Source: a virus. From it: DNA of 35,285 nucleotides. Location: the IMG/VR virus record IMGVR_UViG_3300047509_000146, positions 1-35,285 of that record, one strand, 5' to 3'. Under the pieces are notes generated by a model, which saw nothing but the letters and a program-made list of their open reading frames with translations, was not told the DNA's origin and did not search any database. The translations under genes were made by a program, and so were the position numbers. Positions 7,832 through 14,875 of the stretch are shown one piece after another (the first letter of the stretch is position 1; every line of letters begins with the position of its first letter).

Positions 7832-8017
7832 GTGCAATGTACTGGATGCAAATATCCTGACTCGCATGTTGTTTATACCCGTCATGATCATGTGCGAGAT
7901 GCGATTGAAAGACGACGTGAGTGTTTGCGTTGTGGTATGCGATTTACCACACGTGAGCAACTAAAAGAGCCCAGGCGCCCCCTAGATGATCGATTTCCGA
8001 TGGGGCATAAGCCATGA
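7832..8017 (+). CDS. NrdR-type zinc ribbon, no ATP-cone
   Basis: A GTG start at 7832 gives a 61-aa product. It begins MQCTGCKYPDSHVVYTR and continues RRRECLRCGMRFTTRE, closely matching the N-terminal zinc ribbon of the ribonucleotide-reductase repressor NrdR (CPxC...RRRECxxCxxRFTTxE). The ATP-cone that follows in NrdR is absent. The gene overlaps the large terminase start (ATGA). It could bind DNA at NrdR boxes, or have been repurposed for packaging; both are inference. Confidence 0.8.
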   Translation: MQCTGCKYPDSHVVYTRHDHVRDAIERRRECLRCGMRFTTREQLKEPRRPLDDRFPMGHKP

Positions 8018-9600
8018 TCTCACTTGCGCAATGCAGACAAGATTTTTATACGCTTCGTGATTCAATCAAACGCCAAGATGTTCAACATATATTTTTCGAC
8101 AAGGATGAAACGAGAATTTATGCAAGCGATCAGCAACGTGTTTATGTTCCGAATCCAACTGGTAAACTTTTTCATTCTGACAGTACTTTTGTTCGTTTGC
8201 TCATGGGGCCTTATGGCAGCGGAAAGTCAACGATCTGCATTAATGAGATTGTTAGACTTGCCTGTGCAATGCCCCGGTGGCGAGATGGTAGGCGGCGATC
8301 AAAGTGGCTCATCATACGAAACACAAGTGGAGAGCTACAATCCACGACCTTACAAACCTGGCTCACCTGGTTTGGTGACCTGGGCGTTATTAAAAAGCGT
8401 CAAAAGCCACTCCTTACATACGAGCACACCTTCAATGATGGCCTCGGTATAATCGAATTAGAATTAGTTTTTATTGCATTGGATCGAGATGAAGATATTC
8501 GCAAACTTAAGTCCATTGAAGCGACAGCCGCTTACATCAATGAATTGTCTGAAGTACCACAAGCCGTATTACACCATCTTATTGGTCGGGTTAATCATCG
8601 TTACCCTAGTAAAGCATTTTGTGCAGAGCCATATTGGTCTGGGATAATTGCAGATACCAACCCACCTGACGAAGATCACTGGATCAATAAAGATTTCGAG
8701 CAAAACCCGACAGAGAACTATAAGATATTCCACCAGCCATCCGGCCTAATTCAAAATGGAGACGGAAGTTTTGCGAAAGACAAACAAGGTAATTACTTGG
8801 CTAACCCGGACTGCGATAATTACGCAAATTTATCTTCTGACTATTATGTCAAGCTTGCGGAAAAGCGTTCGGAAGGGTTCATTAAAGTTTACTGCGGTGG
8901 AAAATATGGCATCGTTGAATCAGGTAAACGTGTTTACCCCGAGTATAATGATGATATTCATTCCGTACCTAAGCTCGACGCAATACAAGGGTTGCCAATA
9001 CATCTTGGCTGGGATTTTGGTCTTACGCCTGCTTGCATTGTGTTTCAAATCAGCGCCAGAGGGCAAGCCAGAATCTTAAAAGAGTACATAGCGCAGGATA
9101 TGGGAATTAGGACATTTGCGAAGAATGTTGTGTTGCCTAGCTTGCCGGTGGATTTTATTTATAATCGGGTTGGAGAATCGGAAGCTGATCCGGCAGGAAT
9201 GGCGGGTGACGCTATCATGGAGGAATTGAGCTGTATTGGTGAGCTTAATTCTTTAGGCATAACCACTAATGGTGCAAGCTCGAATGATCCCGATGTGCGT
9301 ATCTCGTCGGTGCGATATTTCTTGAACTCAATGATTGACGGACAACCTGCATTTATCATGTCAAGAGAAGGATGCCCGACATTGCGTAAGGGATTTATTA
9401 ATGGGTATGTATTTAAAAGGCTTAGCGTGACGGGCGATGAACGCTATCATGAGAAACCAAATAAAAACAAATACTCTCATCCACATGATGGATTACAATA
9501 TGGCTTGATGAAGTTTGCAGCGGATCGGATTGTTGAGAATAAACGGCCTGAAGCGAGCAAAGTGGATATGTATAACCCAGTGTTTAGGTGGCAGAATTAG
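8014..9600 (+). CDS. terL: Terminase large subunit
   Basis: A 528-aa ATPase/nuclease that packages DNA into the prohead. Walker A is GPYGSGKS (65-72), Walker B with catalytic Glu is TAAYINELSE (171-180), and ADTNPP (213-218) is the coupling motif. In the nuclease half, D334 (LGWDFG) is the first metal ligand, ESEADP lies at about 389-394, and HPHDGLQYG at about 491-499 carries the last acidic residue. The start overlaps the zinc-ribbon gene (ATGA). Length and motif order are typical. Confidence 0.95.
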   Translation: MISLAQCRQDFYTLRDSIKRQDVQHIFFDKDETRIYASDQQRVYVPNPTGKLFHSDSTFVRLLMGPYGSGKSTICINEIVRLACAMPRWRDGRRRSKWLIIRNTSGELQSTTLQTWLTWFGDLGVIKKRQKPLLTYEHTFNDGLGIIELELVFIALDRDEDIRKLKSIEATAAYINELSEVPQAVLHHLIGRVNHRYPSKAFCAEPYWSGIIADTNPPDEDHWINKDFEQNPTENYKIFHQPSGLIQNGDGSFAKDKQGNYLANPDCDNYANLSSDYYVKLAEKRSEGFIKVYCGGKYGIVESGKRVYPEYNDDIHSVPKLDAIQGLPIHLGWDFGLTPACIVFQISARGQARILKEYIAQDMGIRTFAKNVVLPSLPVDFIYNRVGESEADPAGMAGDAIMEELSCIGELNSLGITTNGASSNDPDVRISSVRYFLNSMIDGQPAFIMSREGCPTLRKGFINGYVFKRLSVTGDERYHEKPNKNKYSHPHDGLQYGLMKFAADRIVENKRPEASKVDMYNPVFRWQN

Positions 9601-9609
9601 AGGCGTTTG

Positions 9610-10089
9610 ATGAGCGAGATTCAAGATTTAAAGAATTATATAATGGCTATTCAACAACAGTTAAATAACCTAACTATCATCATTCAAAATCATAGCAAAA
9701 AAGATGATAATTTAAATGAGATATTAAACTTAGTGCATAATCAAAATTTCGAAAAGGCGAGATTTAATCAATCCTTATTCGAAAATGTATTTCCTGATAT
9801 AGTTCATAGAATTAGTGTTATAGAACATGAATTATCAATAAATAGGCGTAAGGAACAGGACAGAGAAATGATGTTATTACGTCCAATACATACCTTAGGG
9901 TTAATGCCTAGAACATTAAGAGGCCTATTAGCGGAAGGGGTACATACTATCTCTGATTTAATAAAGCTATCTTCATTAGATATATTGAAGATGGTAAATA
10001 TGGGAAAGAAATCTTTAGATGATATTCTACATTCTCTCGCGATAGTTGATTTAACTTTAAGAGCAAATAAAGATGAGAGAAAAATATAA
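9610..10089 (+). CDS. Coiled-coil protein with RNA polymerase alpha-CTD domain
   Basis: A 159-aa protein. Residues 1-85 are a helical, coiled-coil-like segment. Residues 89-145 match the C-terminal domain of bacterial RNA polymerase alpha: LLRPIHTLGL, then R101, then LLAEGVHTISDL, then VNMGKKSLDDI. By alignment to E. coli alpha, R101 corresponds to R265, N130 to N294, G132 to G296, K134 to K298 and S135 to S299, so most UP-element DNA contacts are kept; N268 and C269 become R and G. It may bind promoters or replace or compete with host alpha-CTD to redirect transcription. The start follows GAGG and lies 9 nt after terL. Confidence 0.85.
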   Translation: MSEIQDLKNYIMAIQQQLNNLTIIIQNHSKKDDNLNEILNLVHNQNFEKARFNQSLFENVFPDIVHRISVIEHELSINRRKEQDREMMLLRPIHTLGLMPRTLRGLLAEGVHTISDLIKLSSLDILKMVNMGKKSLDDILHSLAIVDLTLRANKDERKI

Positions 10090-10125: not shown

Positions 10126-10332
10126 ATGCCGACATATGACGAGCTTACCAAAGCTGATGAGTTGATGAACAGGGATATAATTTCGCATGAACTGGAAATA
10201 ATTAGACGACTTATCGAAGAATCTAACGCGCACCAAAATTTTATTACAGACGTCTTTATGAAAAACTGTGAAAGGTTCGCTGAAAGAATCACGAAAATTG
10301 AGACAGCTTTATTTGGTAAAAGTGAGGATTGA
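10126..10332 (+). CDS. Hypothetical helical protein, 68 aa
   Basis: Starts MPTYDELTKADELMNRDIIS. Mostly helical with heptad-like hydrophobics (HELEIIRRLIEESN, ITKIETALFG). It may be a small coiled coil that partners the preceding alpha-CTD-like protein, whose N-terminal half has a similar character; that is inference only. No family recognised. Confidence 0.6.
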   Translation: MPTYDELTKADELMNRDIISHELEIIRRLIEESNAHQNFITDVFMKNCERFAERITKIETALFGKSED

Positions 10333-10685: not shown

Positions 10686-10940
10686 ATGACATGTTTATGT
10701 AAAAATCCTGACGGATCATTTAGTCATTATTGTTTGGGAACGTGTACGCAAAAAGCTTATGTGCCTGTTGATGCTGTTCAGGTACGCTCTGATAAATCTA
10801 TAGAGGACAGGCTTGAGTATTTGCTGGGTATTTTTTTAGATAAGTTAGACGTCAGAATAAAAAATATAGAAAGAATCGCCGATCAAAAATATAAAGAAGG
10901 CTTGCGTGACGGGCTTGAAATGTATCGGGAAATTTACTGA
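10686..10940 (+). CDS. Cys-rich small protein, 84 aa
   Basis: The N-terminus MTCLCKNPDGSFSHYCLGTC offers four cysteines and a histidine for zinc; the rest is a charged helix (RLEYLLGIFLDKLDVRIKNI). The start follows GGGGAAGAGGG. The last base is shared with the next start (TGATG). Function unknown. Confidence 0.65.
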   Translation: MTCLCKNPDGSFSHYCLGTCTQKAYVPVDAVQVRSDKSIEDRLEYLLGIFLDKLDVRIKNIERIADQKYKEGLRDGLEMYREIY

Positions 10941-11416
10941 TGAGTCATGATGATGCTGGGATGTATGAAAGAGCCATTAGGGAAGGACGAGAAAAAGAGC
11001 TGGATGACCAAATTGCTAGGTGCGCAAAGGAAAATTTACGGATGAGCGGCTGTCACGTTCCAATTTCTCAATGCCACTGTAAATGCCATGTTAGTCAGAC
11101 ATGGTGTTGTGGTAATTGCGCATCCGTTGATTTGAAAGATGAGTTTGTGTCAGTCCATGTTATCCATACTATGAGACAAACTATTGAAGCGTGGCAGAAA
11201 GGCTGTGAGGTTTTGATTGTTGAGTTGCAGTCGAGAATTAAAGAGCTAGAAGAAATGCAAAAGTCTATGATATCTATGCCAAACATGGTTTGGGCTAAAT
11301 ATCATAAGACGCCGTATAAGTGTCCTGTTTGTGATGGTTATGCCGGTACAGTTTTAAATGGCGTGATAGATGAACATTGTCATGCTTGCGAAGGGAAAGG
11401 AATTTTATGGGGTTAA
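10940..11416 (+). CDS. Zinc-binding protein with DnaJ-like C-terminal knuckles, 158 aa
   Basis: Residues about 28-60 carry a cluster of C and H (CHVPISQCHCKCHVSQTWCC), then a long helix (residues 75-112), then CPVCDG and CHACEGKG at the end, the CxxCxGxG-type pattern of DnaJ zinc knuckles. It probably binds two zinc sites joined by a coiled segment. Coupled to the preceding gene by TGATG. Role unknown; assembly chaperone or nucleic-acid binder are possible. Confidence 0.65.
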   Translation: MSHDDAGMYERAIREGREKELDDQIARCAKENLRMSGCHVPISQCHCKCHVSQTWCCGNCASVDLKDEFVSVHVIHTMRQTIEAWQKGCEVLIVELQSRIKELEEMQKSMISMPNMVWAKYHKTPYKCPVCDGYAGTVLNGVIDEHCHACEGKGILWG

Positions 11417-11759: not shown

Positions 11760-12011
11760 ATGAGCATTTATTCATTCAATATCAATTTCCCAGGCCAAAA
11801 TAATGGTGTTGTACCACGTATTGGCCATCTTTATGCGCCAAACAATACCTTATCTGAAGTAGCTGCGGCAGGATTTCTTGATGGCTATATTCAAAGCCAA
11901 AACTTCAGCGTATTAGCTACTGATTTGATTGCAGCCGTCGCATCTAATGGTACGCAATGGTATAAGCCTGTTTTCACAAATGGATCATGTCAATTAACAG
12001 TTCTACCATAG
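11760..12011 (+). CDS. Small conserved-looking protein, 83 aa
   Basis: Starts after AAGGAG. MSIYSFNINFPGQNNGVVPR then LSEVAAAGFLDGYIQSQNF and ATDLIAAVASNGTQWYKPVF suggests a small beta-rich fold. Similar short proteins lie before portal genes in P22-like phages; a minor virion or decoration role is possible. Family not firmly recognised. Confidence 0.6.
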   Translation: MSIYSFNINFPGQNNGVVPRIGHLYAPNNTLSEVAAAGFLDGYIQSQNFSVLATDLIAAVASNGTQWYKPVFTNGSCQLTVLP

Positions 12012-12019
12012 GGATATTT

Positions 12020-12229
12020 ATGTCTGATATTTTTAGAAAAGTATATAGAGCTCTTTCAGATGAAAATTCAAAGCATATTGTTTTGATGAAAGAAAAAGCA
12101 GAAGAGCTGTTTTCACTCTTTGATAAAGTAAATAGTCGTGAAATGGCAGTTGCTAAAACTAATTTAGAGCAAACAATGATGTGGGCTACTAAAGCTGTTG
12201 TTTTGGATGATGAAAAAACTAACCCATAG
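12020..12229 (+). CDS. Acb2/Tad1-hairpin-like cyclic-nucleotide sponge
   Basis: A 69-aa helical protein. Start ATG at 12020; a longer frame from 11987 lies inside the previous gene. It contains RALSDENSKHIVLMKEKAEE, then SREMAVAKTNLEQTMMWATK, the helical-hairpin signature of the Acb2 family. Known Acb2 proteins form hexamers that sequester cyclic di- and trinucleotides made by CBASS immunity. The family call comes from the SRE-x-x-x-A-x-T-x-LE-x-x-x-MWA pattern, size and position. It is paired with a Tad2-like gene 13 nt downstream, forming an anti-defence cassette. Confidence 0.8.
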   Translation: MSDIFRKVYRALSDENSKHIVLMKEKAEELFSLFDKVNSREMAVAKTNLEQTMMWATKAVVLDDEKTNP

Positions 12230-12242
12230 GAGAAAAGTAACA

Positions 12243-12479
12243 ATGAAGTTTGAAGAAGCAATGAAGAATTTGGAAGCGGGTCATTACGTACAACGCGATG
12301 CATGGAAAGTCACCGGCGAATATTTGGTTGCATTACCTGGCATTCCTTATGTTTGGCGAATCGTCACCCAACCTCAGCAAAATGCGGGGACATGGGTTGC
12401 AACACGTGAAGATTACCAAGCAAATGATTATGAAGTTGTAAAGAAAGATGAAGATAAGGAAATGCTAGACGCAGCATAG
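12243..12479 (+). CDS. Tad2-like (DUF2829) anti-Thoeris protein
   Basis: A 78-aa protein starting at 12243 after AGGAG. MKFEEAMKNLEAGHYVQRDA, W, YLVALPGIPYVWRIVTQPQQ, NAGTW and ANDYEV match the DUF2829 pattern (F-EA--L--G--V-R--W...A-DW-V). Characterised Tad2 proteins form tetramers that sequester the Thoeris signal gcADPR, and some also bind CBASS nucleotides. The usual ADDW is ANDY here. Together with the Acb2-like gene it should blunt nucleotide-signal immunity. An alternative annotation for this family, type I toxin-like, seems less likely. Confidence 0.78.
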   Translation: MKFEEAMKNLEAGHYVQRDAWKVTGEYLVALPGIPYVWRIVTQPQQNAGTWVATREDYQANDYEVVKKDEDKEMLDAA

Positions 12480-12598: not shown

Positions 12599-12634
12599 AT
12601 TCAAACGATGTTACATTAACCAAGGATGGTTAAA

Positions 12635-14875
12635 ATGGAACGCGATGAAAACGACGTTAACAAAGAAAACTTAACGCCTGATGAAATAAACGACATGGAA
12701 GACCGTCGTATTGCCATGATGAATGAAGCTGGCATCGACGAAGTTGACGTGTTGCAACGCTGCAATCAGCATTTAAATACTTGGAATTCTTATTTCAACG
12801 AAAATATTGTCCGTGGTAAGGATGATATGAATTTCGTATTGCGGGATCAGTGGACGGCGGTTGAAAGAAGTGAATTCACGCGTTTGTTCAAGCCTGCAAT
12901 GACATTCAATAAATTGTATGATTCAACCAAAAAAGTCGTAGGTGAGCAAAGAAAAAATAAGCCGGACTTAATTGTAAGGTCGTTAACCGGTAAGGCAACT
13001 CAAGAACAAATAAACCTACGGGCAGATCTAGTAAGAACCATATCTTATCAGAGTCAGAACGATTTAGTTTATCAAACCGCATTCAAATCAGCCCTCATGA
13101 TGGGATTTGGTGCGTTTCAAGTCTGCTTAGACTATGAGTCACCAAGAAGTTTTAACAAGATCATAAAGTACGATATTATTCCGGACGCTACAAGCTGTTC
13201 ATGGGACCCAACCGCATTAAAGCCCCATAAAGGCGACGGCAATTATTGCTCGCGTAGATTCATATTTACGCGTGATGAGTTTTTTGCAACCTATCCCTAC
13301 GTTCTTAATCCAGTTTCTTACACTGATCCCTATATGCTGCTTGATTTCCAATGGACAACTCGTGACACGATCATTGTATGCGATGAGTTCGTTAAAGAAT
13401 GGTTTCCGCTAGTGATAAATCATATCAAGATCGGAAAGGAATTTAAGGTTTTAGATAACGACCAATGGGAAGCAGAACAAAAGGCATATCAGCGGAAGCT
13501 TGATATTGCGGGCACGGGGGAAGCCCGAGCTATTATTGAGAAAGATCGTCCCATTAAAGTGGGTGAGCGTCAGACTCAAGATTATAAAATTATGCATTAT
13601 CGCTTAATCCGCGACCGAATAATTGATTTTAGTGAGTGGCCGTCGCGTCAACTTCCTATTCCCTTTGTCGATGGCGATAGTTATTACGTGGAAGGACGAC
13701 AATATACTAAATCATTCATTCATGAGGCGCGCGATGCACAGAAATTGCTTAACTATTCACGTTCTGAATTAGCGGCTGAATTGAAAAATCGACGCCGTGA
13801 GCAGTGGCTTGGAACACCAGATAATATCATTGGTTATGAGCAGGACTGGCGTAATCCAGAACTTCAAATGGGTATCTTGCGGGCAAAACCTGATCCTAAA
13901 ACCGGTCAAATGCCGGTCAAGATGCCAGCCTGGGAAGTTTCACAGGGTTTATTTATGACAGCTCAATCCACCGGTCAAGACATCAAAGAGATATTGGGCT
14001 TCTCTGAAGCTGAAGCACTGCAAGGCCGTGATATTTCAGGAAAGGCACGACGTGAACGCAAAATGGAAGGTTCCATGTCGGCATATGTCTTTTTTGATAA
14101 CTTGAATCAAGCGATTGAACAAGGCGGTCGAGTGGTCAATGATTTGTTGCCTCATATTATTGGCGATGAAGAACGTCACATGAATATCTCTAAAAAGGAT
14201 GGCAAATCTGATTCGATCATTATGAACCAACGCGTGGGCGAAGGGGATAACGTGAAAATCACAAACCAATTAGAGCAGGGTGATTTTGACGTTGAAATCG
14301 ATACGGGTCCAAGTTTTGCAGTACAAAAAGATATTGCACTTGAGTTTTTTCAACAAACTATGCAAGCAAGCCCTCAAATATTTCCTCTTATTGCGGATCT
14401 TTGGGCTTCCCAGCTTGATTTGCAACAAATGCCAACCATCAAAGATAGACTTAAGACTTTGGTTCCTCCAGATATTATTGCCAAGGAGGAAGGAAAACCA
14501 CCGCCGCCCCCCAAACCTGATCCACAGGCTCAGATGATGCAGGCTGAAATGGAGTTTAAGCAAGCTCAAATTCAGGAAAAACAAGGCGCTCTTCAGCTTC
14601 AAATGGAAGAATTACAAATTAAGAAGCAAAAACAGGATTTAGAAAAGGCGCAACTTATTTTAGATGCGCAAAAAGCAAAATCAGAAGCTCAACTTAACTT
14701 ATATGATCATGCTTTAAATGTAAGAAAGGCTGAAATAGTTCACGGTGGAGAGAATAGAAAGCATGAGAATGACTTTACTCATAAGATCGCATCAATCCTG
14801 GCTAATTTGCATGAATCAGATAAGCAAAGGGAGCATGAGAAAGAATTACACAAATATAAAGCCTCTACTGATTAG
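12635..14875 (+). CDS. Portal protein, P22-like
   Basis: A 746-aa portal, the dodecameric ring through which DNA is packaged and ejected. The start at 12635 has AAGGA at 9 nt; an ATG at 12626 overlaps that ribosome site. It resembles the P22 gp1 family in length, with FKPAMTFNKLYDSTKKVVGE and KNKPDLIVRS in the N-terminal part. The C-terminus from about residue 625 has a PPPPP stretch and a long Gln/Lys/Glu-rich helix, like the P22 portal barrel. It lies in the order TerL, portal, scaffold, coat. The portal stop overlaps a minus-strand endonuclease gene by 11 nt. Confidence 0.92.
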   Translation: MERDENDVNKENLTPDEINDMEDRRIAMMNEAGIDEVDVLQRCNQHLNTWNSYFNENIVRGKDDMNFVLRDQWTAVERSEFTRLFKPAMTFNKLYDSTKKVVGEQRKNKPDLIVRSLTGKATQEQINLRADLVRTISYQSQNDLVYQTAFKSALMMGFGAFQVCLDYESPRSFNKIIKYDIIPDATSCSWDPTALKPHKGDGNYCSRRFIFTRDEFFATYPYVLNPVSYTDPYMLLDFQWTTRDTIIVCDEFVKEWFPLVINHIKIGKEFKVLDNDQWEAEQKAYQRKLDIAGTGEARAIIEKDRPIKVGERQTQDYKIMHYRLIRDRIIDFSEWPSRQLPIPFVDGDSYYVEGRQYTKSFIHEARDAQKLLNYSRSELAAELKNRRREQWLGTPDNIIGYEQDWRNPELQMGILRAKPDPKTGQMPVKMPAWEVSQGLFMTAQSTGQDIKEILGFSEAEALQGRDISGKARRERKMEGSMSAYVFFDNLNQAIEQGGRVVNDLLPHIIGDEERHMNISKKDGKSDSIIMNQRVGEGDNVKITNQLEQGDFDVEIDTGPSFAVQKDIALEFFQQTMQASPQIFPLIADLWASQLDLQQMPTIKDRLKTLVPPDIIAKEEGKPPPPPKPDPQAQMMQAEMEFKQAQIQEKQGALQLQMEELQIKKQKQDLEKAQLILDAQKAKSEAQLNLYDHALNVRKAEIVHGGENRKHENDFTHKIASILANLHESDKQREHEKELHKYKASTD

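Follow-up and report, generated by a model that had tools for sequence, protein, structure and literature searches.

A phage gene directly behind the large terminase encodes an RNA polymerase α C-terminal domain on a helical stalk

Why does a gene for an apparent piece of bacterial RNA polymerase (RNAP) lie directly behind the large terminase gene (TerL) of a phage, and what could its product do? The window analyzed here, a stretch of 35,285 bases, is the complete IMG/VR virus record IMGVR_UViG_3300047509_000146 of an uncultured phage with P22-like head genes, scaffold and coat among them (Table 1). At 29% GC, the gene under study is poorer in GC than TerL (43%) or the window as a whole (39.5%), and its likely ribosome-binding site overlaps the TerL stop codon by its final base. 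No promoter or terminator of its own was assigned, as promoter-like and terminator-like sites between TerL and the portal gene were no more common than in shuffled sequences. In a divergent region of the window, at 2968-2941 on the minus strand, a strong σ70-like promoter match (TTGACC-16-TATAAT, 11/12) suggests use of the host RNAP; no phage polymerase was seen among the genes searched.

Table 1. Positions of the features discussed, in window coordinates
Feature	Position	Strand	Basis or remark
Small terminase	6745		
Large terminase subunit, TerL	8014..9600	+	Left edge of accessory slot
GAGG, likely ribosome-binding site	9600-9603	+	Direct reading; 6 bases 5' of ATG
αCTD protein gene, 159 aa	9610..10089	+	Open from ATG 9610 to TAA 10089
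Stalk codons, residues 2-29, 33-60, 62-89	9613..9876	+	N-terminal module common to L011, L059, L144
RNA polymerase αCTD codons, residues 82-150	9853..10059	+	Profile, PDB sequence match, AlphaFold, Foldseek
R101 codon, equivalent of E. coli α R265	9910..9912	+	Alignment
N130-M-G-K-K-S135, equivalent of E. coli α N294-S299	9997..10014	+	Alignment
68-aa gene, proposed partner	10126..10332	+	Singleton
Slot protein, 69-member component	10940..11416	+	Variable helical part, C-terminal paired CxxC (DnaJ-like zinc-ribbon) motif
Acb2/Tad1 hairpin-domain protein, likely anti-CBASS/anti-Thoeris	11987..12229	+	PF24729, E=7e-14
Tad2-like protein, likely anti-Thoeris	12198..12479	+	PF11195, E=1e-8
P22-like portal	12626..14875	+	Right edge of accessory slot

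The C-terminal head of the protein is almost certainly a genuine RNAP α C-terminal domain (αCTD), as originally predicted. The Pfam model RNA_pol_A_CTD (PF03118) scores 47.1 bits over residues 82-143 (cut-off 23.8; E=1.9e-12); the general helix-hairpin-helix (HhH) model HHH_5 reaches 17.3 bits on the same protein, under its cut-off, and the other general HhH models likewise fall under theirs. A sequence comparison with the PDB likewise leads to RNAP α chains, the best being 1coo (E=6e-9). The AlphaFold model, whose input alignment held 20 phage sequences, has a mean pLDDT of 91.6, rising to 97-98 across residues 81-150. All 50 PDB matches listed by Foldseek are RNAP α chains or RNAP complexes (8y5t_A2 with TMt 0.93 and rmsd 0.3; 1z3e_B with TMt 0.94; best isolated-domain entries with rmsd 0.3-1), and neither RuvA nor a ligase, the HhH families that the prediction had named as the competing identity, is among them. 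No general HhH family (RuvA, DNA ligase, RAD51D) gave a better match than αCTD. The rpoA model TIGR02027 gives 45 bits against a cut-off of 227.8, with the match confined to positions 214-297 of 298. This restricted match and the helices in the AlphaFold model agree with the earlier description of the N-terminal half as helical and free of the α N-terminal domain (αNTD). Since it lacks an αNTD, the 159-aa protein is not an RNAP subunit. It has no Pfam match to Sigma70_r4.

In the E. coli αCTD, as is well established (for R265, in part in PMC2988021), residues of the 265 determinant contact DNA and those of the 261 determinant contact σ. We aligned the head with αCTDs from five bacteria and with 26 further phage ORFs. 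Five of the six residues of the 265 determinant (R265, N268, N294, G296, K298, and S299) are kept: R265, N294, G296, K298, and S299 correspond to R101, N130, G132, K134, and S135, the same five retained residues that had been listed from the sequence at the outset, and N268 is replaced by R104. C269 of E. coli α corresponds to G105. The 261 determinant (D258/D259/E261), the contact to σ region 4, is lost, with H94/T95/G97 in its place. From these equivalents, the head largely retains its DNA-contact face but not the one that contacts σ. Patterns spanning E. coli positions ~258-273 had been used to pick most of the other phage ORFs, so conservation among them at these positions is selected, and positions 294-299 lie outside the patterns. 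The head is basic, with a pI of 9.7 and a net charge of +3 compared with 5.1 and -3 for the E. coli αCTD, and the heads of relatives L011 and L018 carry net charges of +5 and +2. Judged by residue conservation and charge, the head probably binds DNA, and promoter-like AT-rich sites are the targets one would naturally expect of a true αCTD that keeps most of its DNA-contact residues. A distant αCTD-like relative encoded 5' of TerL, L078:8931-9371, has lost nearly all of the DNA-contact residues, with S, T, H, T, and I at E. coli positions 265, 268, 294, 296, and 298, indicating that the αCTD fold can serve another purpose.

These residues divide the functional part of the original prediction, which had proposed that the protein binds promoters, competes with αCTD, or acts as a co-activator adaptor. 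Binding and competition gain from an αCTD with most DNA contacts kept, whereas a co-activator or adaptor that touches σ as the host αCTD does is weakened by the missing 261 determinant.

The stalk that precedes the head consists, in the AlphaFold model, of three long helices that span residues 2-89 and run into the head; it may form a coiled coil or an oligomer. The same module opens the protein encoded directly behind TerL in both L011 and L059 and occurs in the second slot gene of L144; an alignment of the stalk extended to no sequences other than L011, L059 (=L150), and L144. Between the window and L011, a single pair at or near saturation of synonymous sites, the stalk shows 76% amino acid identity (dN 0.15) and the head 37% (dN 0.72). 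In L059, the stalk is followed by a different head, predicted as β-strands by a low-confidence model (pLDDT 55). The pattern suggests that the stalk is conserved while its heads change. L018 carries a canonical αCTD on another N-terminal segment in the same first place after TerL; the proposal that this segment is the same stalk found no support, as 218 of 1000 shuffles reach its score. Whole-protein relatives were found neither in annotated phage or plasmid collections nor by a single-sequence viral scan.

The higher conservation of the stalk than of the head would suit a fixed docking partner, as expected if the stalk contacts RNAP or a phage factor and the head adds a UP-element contact that turns on phage promoters, for example late ones. 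Fusions of αCTD to σ region 4 in other phages (described below) also fit such a co-activator or adaptor. We nonetheless regard this role as unlikely, because the σ-contacting determinant is lost, promoter-like sites in the slot do not exceed chance, and most relatives lack the gene and yet have to express the same late genes.

A place right after TerL had been called an odd one for a transcription factor. A survey of 129 loci with TerL (101 distinct TerL ends; about 100 related contigs) shows that it is not. The gap between TerL and the portal ranges from none to 5.2 kb, with a median of 1.9 kb across the 129 loci, and the first gene after TerL belongs to 46 different families. Median GC is lowest in the first slot gene (0.33), with 0.36 in other genes of the slot and 0.41 in TerL. 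The site is a hypervariable accessory-gene slot, and its use for cargo answers the puzzle of the gene's position. αCTD itself occurs in only 3 of 92 distinct first-slot genes; in this position L059 encodes the stalk with another head. The domains that Pfam recognizes in 145 slot representatives include αCTD, σ70 region 4, DnaB-N, DnaG zinc ribbon, HNH, cytosine methylase, cold-shock, Tad1/Acb2 hairpin, and Tad2-like. The window slot holds one Tad1/Acb2-type and one Tad2-like gene; family members that have been characterized act as sponges for defense signals (PMC12043709). The αCTD gene is best explained as exchangeable accessory cargo in a slot that also holds anti-defense genes.

Other slot genes deserve mention in their own right. 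Proteins of the 69-member component have helical parts of very unequal length and mostly a C-terminal pair like CPVCDGxG...CxxCEGKGIVWG, and the window copy has no Pfam match. Lone σ70 region 4 proteins are encoded by the first slot gene in L040/L092 and the second in L100 (Pfam E=9e-7 and 2e-12), and lone DnaB helicase N-terminal domains, without the helicase domain, occur at L050:4045-4374 and L066:10772-11125. The 68-aa gene that follows the αCTD gene had been put forward as its partner, a suggestion that was not supported: no relative of this gene turned up among about 100 related contigs, and the closest relative, L011, lacks it. Nor was a relationship of its product to the stalk supported (pairwise p=0.08; profile score reached by 32 of 1000 shuffles).

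The composition of the slot bears on two further alternatives. Because the gene lies immediately 3' of TerL, the head is basic and of HhH type, and the remaining slot genes are of many unrelated kinds, the protein could be a binder of AT-rich DNA without a role in transcription, such as an accessory in DNA organization, packaging, or ejection. This too seems unlikely to us, since the head matches αCTD specifically rather than HhH domains in general, and it is not conserved alongside the packaging genes. An αCTD mimic might instead serve as a protein decoy that titrates host activators or a defense factor that senses αCTD, as would fit an anti-defense slot with Tad1/Acb2-like and Tad2-like genes and recurring lone pieces of host machinery (σ region 4 and DnaB-N). 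Here, however, it is surface residues used for protein contact, those of the 258-261 region, that are lost, while DNA contacts are kept; with no match to defense models, we consider this reading quite improbable.

The host of the phage was approached through sequence relatives. There was no DNA match to known phages, and relatives of TerL in GTDB genomes were limited to two MAG contigs, L174 and L175, assigned to Planctomycetota and Thaumarchaeota; given these clashing hosts, both are probably misbinned virus contigs. Cultured phages with relatives of TerL and capsid have mostly proteobacterial hosts, at identities below 40%. The phage group is uncultured and is present in many metagenomes.

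Phage αCTD proteins also occur elsewhere. When viral contigs were scanned with canonical αCTD patterns, 23 further contigs came up whose αCTD ORFs have several architectures: in some, the domain follows a short N-terminal part, and in others it shares a chain with σ region 4, in some cases together with a Cro-type HTH. Fusions of σ70 region 4 and αCTD are present at L153:1386-2237, L166:5332-6225, L170:5506-6189, and L173:5323-6186 (L173 by eye), and those of L166 and L173 have an N-terminal Cro-type HTH as well. The L153, L166, and L170 fusions come from unrelated phages. Such fusions unite both upstream promoter contacts of RNAP in one regulator. BFVD and UniProt hold phage proteins named 'RNA polymerase, alpha subunit, C-terminal' (uncultured Caudovirales; Mycobacterium phage Mithril; Rhodococcus phage Finch), and the αCTD protein c00050 of Bacillus phage Goe8 has its gene in the terminal repeat, with copies at 1959 and 156106. 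A 12.4-kb terminal region of SPO1, likewise a large Bacillus phage, has most of that phage's early host-takeover genes (PMC6873191). With the named BFVD entries and Goe8, the lone phage αCTD is an already annotated kind; we found no functional study of such proteins in the open-access literature. Many αCTD matches in 'phage' records were left uncounted since, from their match pattern, they are probably contaminating host rpoA; rpoA is annotated in Acinetobacter phage MD-2021a and Salmonella records, and Listeria and Enterococcus records are unannotated. OR851339, OR847224, OR846589, OR844994, and others are 'phage' records of this type, with αCTD matches that resemble host rpoA.

Occupying AT-rich promoter DNA in trans is the role that best fits a phage-made αCTD lacking the σ contact, and we tentatively favor competition with the host αCTD at promoters as the main role of the protein, which would make it an accessory host-takeover factor. 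The stalk would render the protein multivalent or dock it on a phage factor, and the basic head would grip the minor groove of AT-rich (UP-like) DNA through R101, N130, G132, K134, and S135. Acting in trans, with neither the RNAP tether nor a σ-contact surface, the protein would occupy UP elements or other αCTD sites, so that host transcription would fall or be tilted to phage promoters. Competition is supported by the αCTD proteins of L011, on the stalk, and L018, on another N-terminus, which also come first after TerL, and by the lone σ70 region 4 proteins, AT-rich first-slot genes, and anti-defense genes of the slot. The αCTD-σ region 4 fusions in unrelated phages and the Goe8 αCTD in a terminal repeat lend it support, as do phages that attack the host αCTD by other means, T4 with Alt and ModA and LUZ19 with Rac. 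Against it stand the change of N268 to Arg, the loss of DNA contacts in L078, and the presence of the domain in just 3 of 92 first-slot genes; a late-operon place behind TerL also does not obviously fit early host shut-off.

As read from its sequence, the αCTD on a stalk is a likely device for interference at host promoters. Competition makes a sharp prediction for this small protein, a UP-element shift that depends on R101 and K134. A bolder version, which we hold to be doubtful, is that a trans-acting αCTD on a stalk with swappable heads seizes UP-element sites from host RNAP, as one of several lone pieces of host machinery (σ region 4, αCTD, and DnaB-N) swapped through the slot to disturb host transcription and replication. 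Head swaps on a conserved stalk, and the lone σ region 4 and DnaB-N proteins, mark this slot as a place to seek more takeover and anti-defense factors.

Compared with the αCTD of E. coli RpoA (PF03118), the window head has the same fold, HhH core, and equivalents of R265, N294, G296, K298, and S299; it differs in that the protein has no αNTD and carries a three-helix stalk, N268 is Arg, the 261 determinant is lost, and the domain is basic rather than acidic. The fusions in L153, L166, L170, and L173 likewise place αCTD at the C-terminus of a regulator-like phage protein, but bear a σ70 region 4 HTH and in some cases a Cro-type HTH, neither of which the window protein has. Lone phage αCTD proteins (those of the window, L011, and L018, and the BFVD matches) are similarly small and join αCTD to an unrelated other part without αNTD. 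The window protein differs from the annotated ones in its stalk module with exchangeable heads and its place in the TerL-portal slot; the Mithril, Finch, Caudovirales, and Goe8 proteins have other N-terminal parts, and that of Goe8 another place in the genome. Phage factors that act on the contact between host αCTD and promoter are also known: T4 Alt and ModA ADP-ribosylate R265 of the host αCTD (PMC2988021), and LUZ19 Rac causes removal of the host αCTD (PMC7552054). Those are enzymes that modify the host domain or cause its removal, whereas the window phage makes an αCTD of its own, which, if it does act in trans, would be the mirror strategy to theirs.
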